Source: a virus
Direction: 5' to 3' (one strand)
DNA: 37,526 nucleotides
Virus record (IMG/VR): IMGVR_UViG_3300042542_001827
Location: 1-37,526 of that record
Positions 20,337 through 25,358 of the stretch are shown piece after piece. The notes beneath the pieces were generated by a model. The model saw nothing but the letters and a program-made list of their open reading frames with translations, ran no database searches and was not told the origin of the DNA. Numbering within the stretch: position 1 is the first letter of the stretch; every line of letters begins with the position of its first letter. The position numbers were made by a program, and so were the translations under genes.

Positions 20337-20406
20337 AGCCCGGTAGTGTAACTGGTAACACCCCGATTTTTCTCGGGAGTTTCGGGTTCGACCCCCGACT
20401 GGGCTA
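20337..20406 (+). tRNA. tRNA-like element 3, six-base anticodon loop
   Basis: 70 nt. Acceptor AGCCCGG/CTGGGCT, 4-bp D stem GTGT/ACAC, T arm TCGGG/CCCGA with TTCGACC are all good. The anticodon stem CCCGA/TCGGG closes a loop of only six bases (TTTTTC), one short of normal; TTC (Glu) or TTT (Lys) could be the anticodon. It starts 3 nt after element 2 and ends exactly at the base before the terminase stop codon on the other strand. Confidence 0.65.
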
Positions 20407-21726
20407 CTACCTAAAAATAAACTGCTTGTTGTTGGCGTGCAAATCATATCGCAAGCAATCCAAGGCATCGGCACGTTTATCAACCTTCGCCCGGCTACCT
20501 TTATCCACACCCCCGTCAGGTAACGCTTTCACGAATTCGCAATCACGTATCAGTACCTTGCACTTTGGGTTAATCAGTATTTCATCGTAGTTTGAAAAGA
20601 TGCTATTGCACAACCGCCGCGATTCTTGGTGGGGCGGGTTTGACCGTGGCACAAGCAGGTTGTTGGTGCTGATTCGCATGCGGTCAACGATTTCACTCCA
20701 CATATTTTGCCCGACCTTGGCAATCACCGACTGCTGGCGGCCCGAAGCATCGCCCGTAACAAAGTACAATCGGTTCTGCACCTGCGCTGGTGTTCGCCTG
20801 AAGATTTCCTCAACCATAGCTTCAATGAACGTCTTTCCCTGTATATGGTCCGCCGTTAGCGTTATTTCATCGAAGTAGTGAATGAACTGCTTGCCATCTT
20901 GCTGTCTGCCACGATGCGCCAAGATAGCCGTAAACGGGTTATTGTTAAAGTCAATGCTGACGTAAACAGGCATACTGGTGTCGTAGGTTGCCTTACCCCC
21001 AACGTGCTTTTGCCTGTCGAATGAATACAGCCAGTTCAGCCCCGACATCGTAACCCGGTTGGCCAACACCTCCCGTTTGAAGGTCAGGCTATCGTAGGTC
21101 TTCTCAAGCTGCTCAATATACCCTTCGGGCAAGTTCGCACTGTTGTCATACGTTGTGCCGATGGTATGGGCAATCTGCTTTTCGCCCCATATCAGTTCAT
21201 CAATATCAGGGTTGTCCATTGGTGGGGTCATTGTCCAAAGCGTTCGGGGAAACTTCGCCCCCGACATACGGCCCATGACGATATTCAGGCTATCAATCGC
21301 CGCATCCTGTACCTCATCACCCCAGCACCAGCCAAGTTCAATACCCCGTATCATGGTTTCGATGCTGAACGTGATCACCTGTGCCCCGTTCATAAACGAC
21401 CAAACGCCGTTGTGCTTTTCAAACTTTGACTTATAACCGAAGTAGCGTTCAGGGTCTTTATTGGCCACGTAATGTTCGCCCTTGTAAAGGCCATACGCTT
21501 CAAGTACCCCGATGAATTCGGATAAGGTTGCCGTGTTAAGCTGGCTGACCGTATTACTGAAGATGCCGCCCTTTATTTCTGGCTGATGAATGATATTGTG
21601 TAATGCCCAATGCGCCCCCGTTATGGTTTTACCCGACCGAATGCCACCGACATAAGCATATAGCCGTTCGGTTTCGCTTGCGGTTAATGTTTCGTGCTGC
21701 TTCGGGTTTAAATTATACCTCTTCAT
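20407..21726 (-). CDS. terL: Terminase large subunit
   Basis: 439 residues, full length for the family. ATPase: Walker A GGIRSGKT (27-34) and Walker B with WGDE (135-138). RNase H-like nuclease: D259 in VSIDFNNNP, D326 in VTGDASG and D420/D423 in KRADALDCL. It cuts the concatemer and drives DNA into the prohead through the portal. The start overlaps the small subunit gene by 14 bp. The portal gene is not adjacent, being about 17 kb away on the circle. Packaging type cannot be told from sequence alone. Confidence 0.95.
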   Translation of the reverse strand: MKRYNLNPKQHETLTASETERLYAYVGGIRSGKTITGAHWALHNIIHQPEIKGGIFSNTVSQLNTATLSEFIGVLEAYGLYKGEHYVANKDPERYFGYKSKFEKHNGVWSFMNGAQVITFSIETMIRGIELGWCWGDEVQDAAIDSLNIVMGRMSGAKFPRTLWTMTPPMDNPDIDELIWGEKQIAHTIGTTYDNSANLPEGYIEQLEKTYDSLTFKREVLANRVTMSGLNWLYSFDRQKHVGGKATYDTSMPVYVSIDFNNNPFTAILAHRGRQQDGKQFIHYFDEITLTADHIQGKTFIEAMVEEIFRRTPAQVQNRLYFVTGDASGRQQSVIAKVGQNMWSEIVDRMRISTNNLLVPRSNPPHQESRRLCNSIFSNYDEILINPKCKVLIRDCEFVKALPDGGVDKGSRAKVDKRADALDCLRYDLHANNKQFIFR

Positions 21727-23134: not shown

Positions 23135-23907
23135 TGTGGCGGTGTGTATTTGCCCCAAAAAGCGTTGCGCATTTCATCGGCTTTGCTTGGCGGTGCTTCA
23201 ACTACCCGATTGGCAATGATGCCCAACTTTTCGTAAATCTCAGCCCGTAAATGGTCCGGGCATGGCACACCTTCATCTTCGGGTTTGGCTGGCAAAACAA
23301 CCTTCGGCCATTCAGCAAGCGGCATCACTTCAACATCACCCCGAAGGTCATCACCGGGCATGATAATCGTTTCCCACTTTTTGAATCGGGACATTAACCG
23401 TGCATCGGGCTGGCCGTCCGTCCCGAATCGTGCCAATATTTGGGACAGGGTGTTATTTGAAATTATACCAGTAATAAACTTGCTATCCATTCGGCTTTCG
23501 ATAATGTCGTACAAGATCGTGTTCTGCCGCCCAAACGCCCCGACCGCTTCATCAGCCCCGACATCGTCTAAAATCAAATGCCCGTACTTCGTTTTGTGGA
23601 TGAACGCCAAGATAAATTCATCAGGGTTTTTCATGGCCGCATACTCCCGAAATAAATGCCGCATGTTGTAGAAGGTGAATTGCTTTTCGGGTTGGGCCGC
23701 TAAGAACAGCCTTGTGTATATTGTTTTGCCTGTGCCCGTATCACCAGTCAAAAAAAACGATTTGTTCGTGTCGAATGCGGTGCAAAGCTTTCGCACGGCG
23801 GCGGCCCGTTCTTTTGTTAAAACCATTTTGTTGGGTTGAAATACGATGTTTGCCAGTTCGATGGCCCGGCGGTCAAGGGTTGTTTCGGTTAAGGTGTAGG
23901 TTTTCAT
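23131..23907 (-). CDS. DnaC-like AAA+ helicase loader
   Basis: 258 residues. Walker A GDTGTGKT (55-62), Walker B LILDDVG (111-117), sensor-1 region IISNN near 149-153, and a likely arginine finger in RLMSRF (about 170-175). This matches DnaC/IstB-type loaders, which place the host replicative helicase on DNA. No phage helicase was identified, so it probably recruits host DnaB to the candidate origin at 25786-25909. Its start lies 35 bp inside the end of the methyltransferase frame. Confidence 0.88.
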   Translation of the reverse strand: MKTYTLTETTLDRRAIELANIVFQPNKMVLTKERAAAVRKLCTAFDTNKSFFLTGDTGTGKTIYTRLFLAAQPEKQFTFYNMRHLFREYAAMKNPDEFILAFIHKTKYGHLILDDVGADEAVGAFGRQNTILYDIIESRMDSKFITGIISNNTLSQILARFGTDGQPDARLMSRFKKWETIIMPGDDLRGDVEVMPLAEWPKVVLPAKPEDEGVPCPDHLRAEIYEKLGIIANRVVEAPPSKADEMRNAFWGKYTPPQ

Positions 23908-24634
23908 ATTCGTTAATTGCTTTAAAGATTTGGTAAACTACTTGGGGCACGATTGCGTTTCCCCCTGCTTTGATTGATTCGTTTCGCCACTTAGAAAAGG
24001 TAATTCCGTCCAGTTCGGTGGAAAGCCCATCATTTCCAGTACAAATTGGGGATTTAGTTGGGAAGTTTTCCCAGTTTGGATGAACGAATCGGGTAGTGAG
24101 TTCGTGTGATTCCTCCCTGAGTTCTCCAGCGCTTCCGTTGACCTCGCCCCCTTGTAGTCCCTGGTGGTCGGTGTCGGGAGCAACCCCGGCCACCTTTTCT
24201 CCACAAACCCCGATTGAATCTCCTGAGCAAGCGTTCCGCTGTTCCCGAATTTCTGCTCCTTCTTGCTCAGGTTCTCCGTATAAGCGTCCGCTGCACAAGG
24301 TGTTTTTAGCAACCCCATTACCTGTGTTGCAAGGTTCGGCATCGTTGTTCCGTTTGGGTATTTCTCCATTCGTTTCTTGAATTTGTCCAGATCCATAACT
24401 TCTTTCCTTGTGGTCGGAGTAAGCAACAAACCAAACCCGGTCTCTTTTGTGGGGAGCGTTGACGCTTGCAGCTGGAAGTATAAACGGTTGGACTTCGTAC
24501 CCTTCAGCTTCCAAGTCAGCTTGCACCTCGTCGAAAACCAATCCCCCGTTCCAATTAACAAGGCCGAGAACGTTTTCGCCCACGACCCAACGTGGTTGAA
24601 CCTCTCGAATGACTCTAAGCATTTCGGGCCACAA
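23873..24634 (-). CDS. C5-cytosine DNA methyltransferase, C-terminal part
   Basis: 253 residues counted from a TTG at 24634. It continues the frame of the 83-residue fragment above but is separated by an in-frame TGA at 24692-24694. Motifs: GENVLG (motif VI), HKRDRVWFVA (motif VIII) and GNAIVPQV (motif X). A polar, low-complexity target-recognition region lies between (about 70-180). Together with the upstream fragment it would give a 356-residue enzyme. From the TTG alone it lacks motifs I and IV and would be inactive. Most of it is also covered by another open, conserved-looking frame (23938-24777). The end overlaps the DnaC-like gene by 35 bp. Confidence 0.75.
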   Translation of the reverse strand: MWPEMLRVIREVQPRWVVGENVLGLVNWNGGLVFDEVQADLEAEGYEVQPFILPAASVNAPHKRDRVWFVAYSDHKERSYGSGQIQETNGEIPKRNNDAEPCNTGNGVAKNTLCSGRLYGEPEQEGAEIREQRNACSGDSIGVCGEKVAGVAPDTDHQGLQGGEVNGSAGELREESHELTTRFVHPNWENFPTKSPICTGNDGLSTELDGITFSKWRNESIKAGGNAIVPQVVYQIFKAINEYENLHLNRNNP

Positions 24635-24777
24635 GTGTCGCTCGTCTTCCTTTCCGAGCCGCTTTCCGGCTGCGCTGTACGGTTGGCATGGTCAAGGGAA
24701 CCCGCCAACGAGAACAATGTCATCTGTTCTCCAGCGGGTTCCGAATCGTTTTTGCATTTCATAATCGATTTTTTCAT
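23938..24777 (-). CDS. Alternate-frame protein overlapping the methyltransferase
   Basis: 279 residues (a Met at 24723 gives 261). It lies in a different frame of the same strand and is nested in the methyltransferase region. It has recognisable family blocks: GPKCLESFERF, then RCKLTWKLKGTKSNRLYFQL, several LPTPTTRDYKG-like repeats, GNSGTLAQEI, and a final LNPQFVLEMMGFPPNWTELPF. These blocks are recalled from separately annotated phage and mobile-element proteins next to DNA methyltransferases, so this is unlikely to be a chance frame. Function unknown. The same bases encode the methyltransferase motifs, making the stretch dual-coding. Confidence 0.6.
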   Translation of the reverse strand: MKKSIMKCKNDSEPAGEQMTLFSLAGSLDHANRTAQPESGSERKTSDTCGPKCLESFERFNHVGSWAKTFSALLIGTGDWFSTRCKLTWKLKGTKSNRLYFQLQASTLPTKETGFGLLLTPTTRKEVMDLDKFKKRMEKYPNGTTMPNLATQVMGLLKTPCAADAYTENLSKKEQKFGNSGTLAQEIQSGFVEKRWPGLLPTPTTRDYKGARSTEALENSGRNHTNSLPDSFIQTGKTSQLNPQFVLEMMGFPPNWTELPFLSGETNQSKQGETQSCPK

Positions 24778-24943
24778 AGGTTAATGTGTGTATATCATCG
24801 TGGTGATATGCTTTTGGCCAGTAGTATTCGAGATGCTTTCGGCCAAATGGATTGATTTCGCAAGATGCGATGTTAGTCCAACCAGCCCACTCTGACGCCA
24901 ATTCAAAACCGCCTATTCCGCTGAATAAACTAATGTGTAGCAC
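24692..24943 (-). CDS. C5-cytosine DNA methyltransferase, N-terminal part (cut by TGA)
   Basis: 83 residues. LFSGIGGFELA (motif I, SAM binding), CEINPFG (motif II) and VLVGGFP (start of motif IV) are intact. The frame then meets TGA followed, in the same frame, by the rest of motif IV (PCQPYSAAGKR). Compared with the expected GGFPCQ there are two extra codons, TGA CCA, at the catalytic loop. The reading frame is otherwise kept. Without read-through the product lacks the catalytic Cys. The start overlaps the HNH gene by 14 bp. Confidence 0.8.
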   Translation of the reverse strand: MLHISLFSGIGGFELASEWAGWTNIASCEINPFGRKHLEYYWPKAYHHDDIHTLTYEKIDYEMQKRFGTRWRTDDIVLVGGFP

Positions 24944-25358
24944 GTTTTCTTCCTTTTGTGTATTGGTTATTATGTGGAGAATAAAGCCTTGTGTGTTCGC
25001 TCTTAAGCAAGCACTCTAAATTTTCAATTCTATTGTCGTGCTTAAGTTCGTTTTTGTGATGTATATCATACCCATTAGGTATTCTTCCATTGTAAAACTC
25101 ATAAACATAACGATGCATCAAAATTCTGTCATCAGTAGTTAGTCCGTAGTAGCCATTATTCCTAAGAGTAAACTTTTTGCCATCAAAAAATTGATATGGC
25201 CTAAAATTTGGGCCTCTTAGCTTGAATCCTCTTTTTACAAATGCTTTATAAACACATTGCCGCGTTACGTTTAATTCATCGGCAACTTGCTCAAGCGAAA
25301 GTCCGTCAAGATACATCTCGTATGCTTGATCGTAAATTGGATTTCTTTTTCTTCCCAT
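24930..25358 (-). CDS. HNH endonuclease with N-terminal HTH
   Basis: 142 residues. Residues 8-45 form an HTH (LSLEQVADELNVTRQCVYKAF). Residues 78-125 are an HNH_3-type nuclease: LMHRYVYEFYNGRIPNGYDI, H100-H101, then HDNRIENLECL with N109. These are often free-standing homing endonucleases in phages. It lies just before the methyltransferase fragment, and its own promoter gives a leaderless start (-7 box ends 4 nt before ATG). Base composition is more AT-rich than its neighbours, suggesting recent insertion. Confidence 0.88.
   Translation of the reverse strand: MGRKRNPIYDQAYEMYLDGLSLEQVADELNVTRQCVYKAFVKRGFKLRGPNFRPYQFFDGKKFTLRNNGYYGLTTDDRILMHRYVYEFYNGRIPNGYDIHHKNELKHDNRIENLECLLKSEHTRLYSPHNNQYTKGRKRATH

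Follow-up and report, generated by a model that had tools for sequence, protein, structure and literature searches.

A dual-coding phage C5-cytosine methyltransferase gene with a probable HNH-linked stop hop in its catalytic motif

The window, i.e. the whole stretch of 37,526 bases analysed here, is a virus record in which terminase, portal and tail genes are present. A tRNA-like fold with a two-base anticodon, reported by ARAGORN at 20337-20407 (+), overlaps the end of the terminase gene and is probably spurious. On the minus strand the open reading frame of a presumed homing endonuclease (25358-24930) ends where a methyltransferase gene, here termed alpha, begins (Table 1). An earlier note on this DNA had assigned C5-methyltransferase motifs to a single frame running from 24943 to 23873; the motifs are borne out by matches to PF00145 (E = 5.9e-17 and 1e-5 for the two halves of alpha) and phrog_363, but the region is not one open frame, being divided by TGA at 24694-24692 within motif IV (GGFP*PCQPYS, where the asterisk is the stop). 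The catalytic Cys is encoded by TGC 24688-24686, and alpha terminates at TGA 23875-23873. The note had also described a second frame on the same strand, 24777-23938, with sequence blocks that it likened to those of annotated phage proteins. This frame is open for 279 codons and contains the quoted blocks exactly, and its product, here termed beta, matches phrog_1008 (E 1.7e-24), whose members carry the phage annotation 'DNA methyltransferase'. With GGAG at 24732-24729, the start of beta is probably ATG 24723 rather than 24777, giving about 261 codons.

Table 1. Coordinates of the methyltransferase locus in the window
Feature	Positions	Strand	Basis
HNH endonuclease ORF, 142 aa, HTH + HNH_3	24930..25358	-	HNH_3 6e-15; phrog_7545 1e-17
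Alpha N-terminal half: GTG start, motif I LFSGIGGF to GGFP of motif IV	24695..24943	-	PF00145, phrog_363, translation
Conserved hairpin	24697..24742	-	5' arm 24742-24734; 3' arm 24705-24697
Putative take-off codon CCT, Pro of motif IV	24695..24697	-	CCN, never CCC, in 51 hop loci
In-frame stop TGA inside motif IV	24692..24694	-	Stop in 51/51 hop loci, never TGG
Putative landing codon CCA	24689..24691	-	YYN in 51/51 hop loci
Alpha C-terminal half, motifs VI, VIII, X	23873..24688	-	PF00145, phrog_363; codon-position constraint as in uninterrupted genes
GGAG, probable beta ribosome binding site, within hairpin	24729..24732	-	Sequence
Beta, probable gene, ATG 24723, 261 aa, +1 frame relative to alpha	23938..24723	-	phrog_1008 1.7e-24; 46-relative alignment; resampling and synonymous-site tests
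Beta motif-IX-like block LNPQFVLEMMGFPPNWT	24007..24057	-	Invariant core in 46 relatives; near-zero synonymous variation in overlapped alpha codons

The argument that beta would not be open by chance is upheld by resampling. With the alpha protein of the window fixed and its synonymous codons resampled, a mean of 7.1 stops is expected in the beta frame and the probability of its being open is 0.002, and the reverse resampling, applied to the half of alpha after the stop, predicts 14.3 stops in alpha, with 0/1000 resampled sequences open. Beta relatives are encoded by 519 IMG/VR stretches, and the 79 loci retained have the two frames open across one common region and in the same relative phase, the motif-IV stop excepted. 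For the 62 uninterrupted loci, in which the two frames are open together over 200-300 codons, 6.0 stops are expected on average in beta with alpha fixed (P open 0.0016) and 13.2 in alpha with beta fixed (P < 0.001 in 62/62), and none is seen in either frame. The outcome that would have spoken against dual coding, namely beta homologues existing only as shadow frames in which related phages tolerate stops, was not what the collected homologues revealed; in these, beta invariably lay over an alpha gene and did not occur alone.

Synonymous sites are likewise constrained where the frames overlap. Four-fold synonymous diversity in alpha is 0.62 upstream of the beta start, falls to ~0.09 over the LNPxFV..MMGFPxxW end of beta and is ~0.65 past the beta end, the last two values being averages of the individual site values; in this low-diversity overlap alpha FPTQSPICGGDDGLPTELDGITF is read against beta SQLNPRFVAEMMGFPPNWTELPF, with many columns identical in 60/60 loci. 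Synonymous sites of alpha are thus nearly fixed over the beta end and saturated elsewhere. We conclude that both overlapping frames are real and under selection. About 20 codons before motif IV the uninterrupted loci also show synonymously conserved GGA and ATT codons (columns -20 and -18), a pattern that fits a ribosome binding site and TTG start for beta; the equivalent in the window is GGAG-AACAG-ATG 24723. Beta carries a conserved LTWKLKG block and a number of LPTPxxRDYKG modules (window 24250-24090) that varies among relatives, with alpha lengthening in step, and these modules may be units of recognition that can be exchanged. In L195 and L208 (also L198), CQD-type methyltransferases with a motif-IV stop, the overlapping alternate-frame ORF is long but of a different kind, e.g. 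YLSPRAARGILRRAEKRGRELPP in L208, and possibly represents a second family of nested partner proteins.

Alpha is split at the same place in 7/79 of these relatives, and two fecal phage records that are closest to the window past the stop are uninterrupted. A motif pattern that permitted Trp, either Phe codon and any next codon yielded 50 viral loci, all of which have a stop, all TTC and all a YYN codon next. A control scan with 1-13 extra nucleotides between the Pro and Cys codons added 9-nt inserts (6 loci) and 7-nt inserts (2), in which, too, the stop directly follows CCN and YYN directly precedes TGY. After deduplication 51 loci share one order, i.e. a hairpin ending at CCN, the stop, 0-3 nt, a YYN codon and the catalytic Cys TGY, with an insert of 6 nt in 43 loci, 7 nt in 2 and 9 nt in 6, and at all three lengths removal of the insert restores GGFPCQ. 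The stop is TAA in 31 loci, TGA in 17 and TAG in 3; the codon before the Cys begins with CT (22), CC (20) or TC (9), never with TT, and ends in A (33), G (12), T (5) or C (1). The codon before the stop is CCG, CCT or CCA, CCC occurring in 0/51 hop loci against 17/62 uninterrupted genes, and TTT is used in 28/62 of the latter. Most matches to the stop pattern in genome contigs fell by chance outside methyltransferases and showed TTT, TGG and non-YYN codons, and only two (L165 and L167) were real; apparent 4-nt inserts (L135, L145, L146) proved to be ordinary GSPPCQ motifs in another frame.

Motif IV of the window is whole only if the stop is bypassed. Recoding of the stop codon was considered and rejected, as all three stops occur at the site and TGA and TAG terminate alpha and beta. 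Were the stop instead decoded by a tRNA in ordinary readthrough, alpha would gain two or three residues in the motif IV loop, and the 6- and 9-nt inserts, which are the majority, would indeed keep the frame and give a full-length chain. The 7-nt inserts, however, shift the frame, two stops stand in a row in 4/6 of the 9-nt inserts, all three stop codons are used, and the extra residues would split the Pro-Cys catalytic dipeptide, whilst the YYN codon, the missing TT and the avoidance of CCC would be left unexplained; we regard readthrough as very unlikely.

The part of alpha beyond the stop evolves as do intact genes. Over motifs IV-VIII, divergence at codon positions 1/2/3 is 0.171/0.092/0.307 in genes with the stop against 0.173/0.100/0.331 in those without it. 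In a tree based on 105 columns, many of whose forks are unresolved, interrupted and uninterrupted genes are intermixed, with at least 24 changes, of which well supported branches force 9; a clade of seven divergent loci, itself well supported, is interrupted throughout. One further record, L001, is identical to the window, is perhaps the same virus and was not counted as independent proof against sequencing error. As judged from these sequence comparisons, the half of alpha after the stop is used and the stop is not decay. The contrary reading, that alpha is dead, the gene being kept only for beta and the alpha frame open merely as the shadow of beta, could appeal to the presence of an in-frame stop within a catalytic motif and to two Bacteroides finegoldii plasmids, NZ_OY725930 (L216) and NZ_OY725938 (L217), in which beta is open for 303 and 353 codons and alpha appears broken by stops or frameshifts, with no hairpin. 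These plasmid copies may reflect persistence of beta without alpha, decay or an assembly error. A dead alpha seems most unlikely, given that the half after the stop diverges exactly like intact genes, that beta alone would leave 13 alpha stops in the uninterrupted loci and 14.3 in the window half after the stop where none is seen, that the deep hop-only clade keeps alpha, and that the stop is set in a conserved hairpin and codon context.

This hairpin distinguishes the interrupted loci. The 102 nt up to the Pro codon have a mean folding z of -4.26 in interrupted loci against +0.39 in uninterrupted ones, and a helix through GGSTTC is predicted in 45/51 hop loci as against 1/61 others. In 41/45 the take-off codon base at which the 3' strand ends is the same, in model numbering the first (the first paired C's of CCN), and the third base of the Gly codon is paired as G-C in 19, C-G in 23 and A-U in 2. 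The nine-pair outer helix is unbroken in 189/189 cells of the 21 hairpins that could be aligned, with covariation at pairs 8:39 (AU, GC, CG, UA) and 5:42 (GC, CG) and a covariation score of 0.191, compared with 0.097 +/- 0.011 for shuffled and at most 0.077 for slid alignments. The covariance model matches the window at 24742-24695 with 69.8 bits, as expected with the window hairpin in the model, and Rfam holds no family for this hairpin. The full stem is missing in 6/51 loci, of which L118 has none at all and four of the others a shorter, imperfect stem. Asymmetry between G.U and A.C pairs was considered as proof of action by the sense RNA, and set aside, the counts not proving action at the RNA level. 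The RFGSHWRNDDIIL peptide before the hop, absent from HNH-2 loci, is explained by the hairpin encoded in it. The hairpin is kept in 16/17 interrupted loci with no detected HNH gene and so goes with the stop, not with the nuclease. The device has the 5' stem-loop of bypass sites of the T4 gene 60 type.

The beta start signal, GGAG...ATG, lies in the upper stem and loop of the same hairpin (window 24742-24697), and translation of alpha may open or close it. A purely regulatory role for the stop would follow if ribosomes that end the alpha N-terminal fragment there re-initiated at the beta start, with alpha remaining split; such translational coupling would suit the position of the beta ATG, which the window and, by sequence, L083 have within the hairpin, a few codons upstream of the stop. 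Some hairpins, however, are without any ATG (e.g. L149), and the only start codon found between the stop and the catalytic Cys is CTG, in 7/51 loci, so an active C-terminal half could not start separately. Coupling of this kind is accordingly, in our estimation, very improbable.

The interruption is closely associated with the nuclease. An HNH gene lies within ~2 kb of 34/51 interrupted against 0/62 uninterrupted genes (p ~2e-16), the other 17/51 hop loci having none in the available stretch, and it either stands free immediately ahead of alpha, the arrangement in the window, or is inserted in the gene between motifs III and IV. The hop and no-hop samples come from different scans, although the 5 hop loci of the common scan agree, with the HNH gene upstream in four and downstream in one. 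Among the HNH homologues fetched, some of them near-identical, 28/28 of those next to or inside a methyltransferase accompany a motif-IV stop. Comparison of L001 (equivalent to the window) with its uninterrupted sister L006 locates the exchange: the flanks are 90.5% identical at 25810-25484 and similarity resumes at 24690, exactly at motif IV, and between these breakpoints L006 simply carries an uninterrupted alpha, whereas L001 has the HNH gene, a different alpha N-terminal half, the hairpin and the stop. Of nine sister pairs, most have their right-hand breakpoint at motif IV, which is what co-conversion from a cut at that place would produce. The loci show the properties of a homing cassette, namely a nuclease linked to the insert, empty sites in sisters and co-conversion at the cut site. 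The device thus has the look of a mobile cassette comparable to T4 mobA/gene 60, and its insert would protect the gene from the HNH enzyme, which would cut uninterrupted motif IV in rival phages. An HNH-containing 'DNA methylase' of Cylindrospermopsis phage Cr-LKS3 was rejected as a further example, being a methylase of another kind with no such stop, and among INPHARED matches to the HNH proteins the one record inspected contained no isolate with the device. In L098 and L188 the N-terminal part of the methyltransferase stays open across the inserted HNH gene, whose frame is not the same, giving yet another overlap of frames.

Taken as a whole, we consider it quite likely that the window encodes a two-subunit methyltransferase in overlapping frames, with alpha interrupted by an HNH-linked cassette and its stop crossed by a programmed hop; the hop itself is judged probable from the sequences of about 60 related viruses. 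In the proposed mechanism motif IV would be interrupted by a cassette comprising the HNH gene, a replaced alpha N-terminal half, the hairpin and the stop. While CCT occupies the P site and TGA the A site, the hairpin would re-form behind the ribosome; peptidyl-tRNA-Pro would then release CCT, pass TGA and re-pair with CCA, and decoding would restart at TGC, to give the uninterrupted product GGFP-CQPYS. A stop beside the take-off codon and a landing codon pairable with the same tRNA are found in 51/51 CQP-type loci, and the codons seen are those open to re-pairing by tRNA-Pro (anticodon UGG) if no more than one wobble is allowed in the first two positions. Among CQD-type or related loci there are exceptions, with landing codons ACA (L195-L197) and ACG (L193), a sense codon before the stop (L191) and an earlier YY triplet (L208); these show either that the rules have exceptions or that decay is under way in some copies. 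In L194 (2620-2670) the take-off codon is CAT (GGFH*P CQ) despite an intact hairpin, which is at odds with a Pro hop.

The same codons could be read as a +1 frameshift site. Known +1 sites include CCN ahead of a slow stop, and at CCC_UGA it matters that peptidyl-tRNA-Pro comes after Phe (PMC5009743). Beta itself is in the +1 frame, such that an RF2-like shift would fuse the alpha N-terminal part to beta. CCC, the best +1 site, is nevertheless found in 0/51 loci, the fusion would be without motifs IV-VIII, the site is followed in L105 by no more than ~10 codons of the beta frame, and neither the conserved alpha half after the stop nor the YYN codon would be explained, making a frameshift extremely unlikely. 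We think it fairly probable that these loci form a natural family of stop hops, defined by a mobile HNH-linked cassette, a 6/7/9-nt skip, tRNA-Pro re-pairing with one wobble, a push from the 5' hairpin and a dual-coding gene.

The features of the two products point to a division of labour. Alpha has the marks of a C5-cytosine methyltransferase, i.e. motifs I, IV, VI, VIII and X and a Rossmann-like large domain, and its relatives have the same motifs but pass from VIII to X with no motif IX. The large domain of L006 matches M.HhaI in sequence and in fold, the AlphaFold model being confident there; residues 186-337 of this alpha are predicted to be disordered (pLDDT ~33), and its model contains no folded recognition domain. 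The end of beta, LNPxFVxEMMGFPxxWT, resembles motif IX by eye, and in L191 a beta-type end block sits in alpha's own frame. The beta profile searched against the PDB gave chance matches only and no methyltransferase, and an AlphaFold model of beta alone (pLDDT 56) was too poor for a structure search; assignment of motif IX to beta, guided by pattern and context, is thus best treated as putative. By analogy, alpha may be the catalytic subunit and beta, in the +1 frame, a subunit that would supply the recognition part and motif IX to alpha's catalytic large domain with its motifs I-VIII and X, the two acting together. The missing motif IX and folded recognition domain of alpha, the precedent of the two-polypeptide M.EcoHK31I and the L191 block together favour such a split enzyme, and frames and constraint place the gene for the second subunit within the large-subunit gene in another frame.

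What is known of translational bypassing in phages comes essentially from a single well-studied case, T4 gene 60. If the proposal is true, evolution would offer a family of over 50 natural and divergent cases, whose three gap lengths, covariation and matched uninterrupted sisters would let the rules for tRNA release, scanning and re-pairing be read off and tested with 100-nt constructs. It would also supply a second case of a homing endonuclease travelling with a ribosome bypass. As the same DNA is dual-coding, the hairpin, two proteins and start signals share one sequence, and annotation pipelines can be expected to label such genes as pseudogenes or to divide them.

As a pair of proteins, alpha and beta are best read as a split enzyme of the M.EcoHK31I kind, a likeness set by the description of that enzyme. 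In M.EcoHK31I, too, the beta gene is nested in alpha in another frame. This two-polypeptide C5 methyltransferase recognises YGGCCR, and its larger subunit has motifs I-VIII and X, with motif IX on the second polypeptide (PMC3404938); its predicted recognition domain, however, is in the large subunit (PMC3404938), whereas the corresponding part of alpha is predicted to be disordered. Paenibacillus phage Diva gp49/gp50 also combines a methyltransferase with an overlapping-frame 'g49 internal gene' homologous to beta, but its motif IV is uninterrupted and there is no stop hop.

As a bypass, the device resembles T4 gene 60 in having a stop right after the take-off codon, a 5' stem-loop, which in gene 60 is thought to push the ribosome forward, a landing codon that matches the P-site tRNA and, for an insert in the gene of an essential enzyme, linkage to a homing endonuclease (PMC5009743). 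It differs in that gene 60 has a gap of 50 nt and matched Gly codons, as against 6, 7 or 9 nt and Pro CCN to YYN here, and in that the present device is without a known nascent-peptide signal and occurs in dozens of divergent loci. In the synthetic 'stop hops' of Weiss et al. 1987 nine nucleotides, codon-stop-codon, specify one amino acid (PMC5009743), which is the arrangement proposed here, although the present device is natural, conserved and coupled to a hairpin. Natural stop hops had been predicted, and a 2016 review knew of no natural in-frame case (PMC5009743); no later one was found in the literature searched, subscription papers being outside its scope. The mitochondrial bypass of Magnusiomyces capitatus likewise involves mobile short inserts neutralised by the ribosome and an imperfect match of take-off and landing (PMC5009743), but there mitochondrial ribosomes act independently of context at 81 sites in one genome, in contrast to the single site, fixed hairpin and HNH linkage of the phage device described here.
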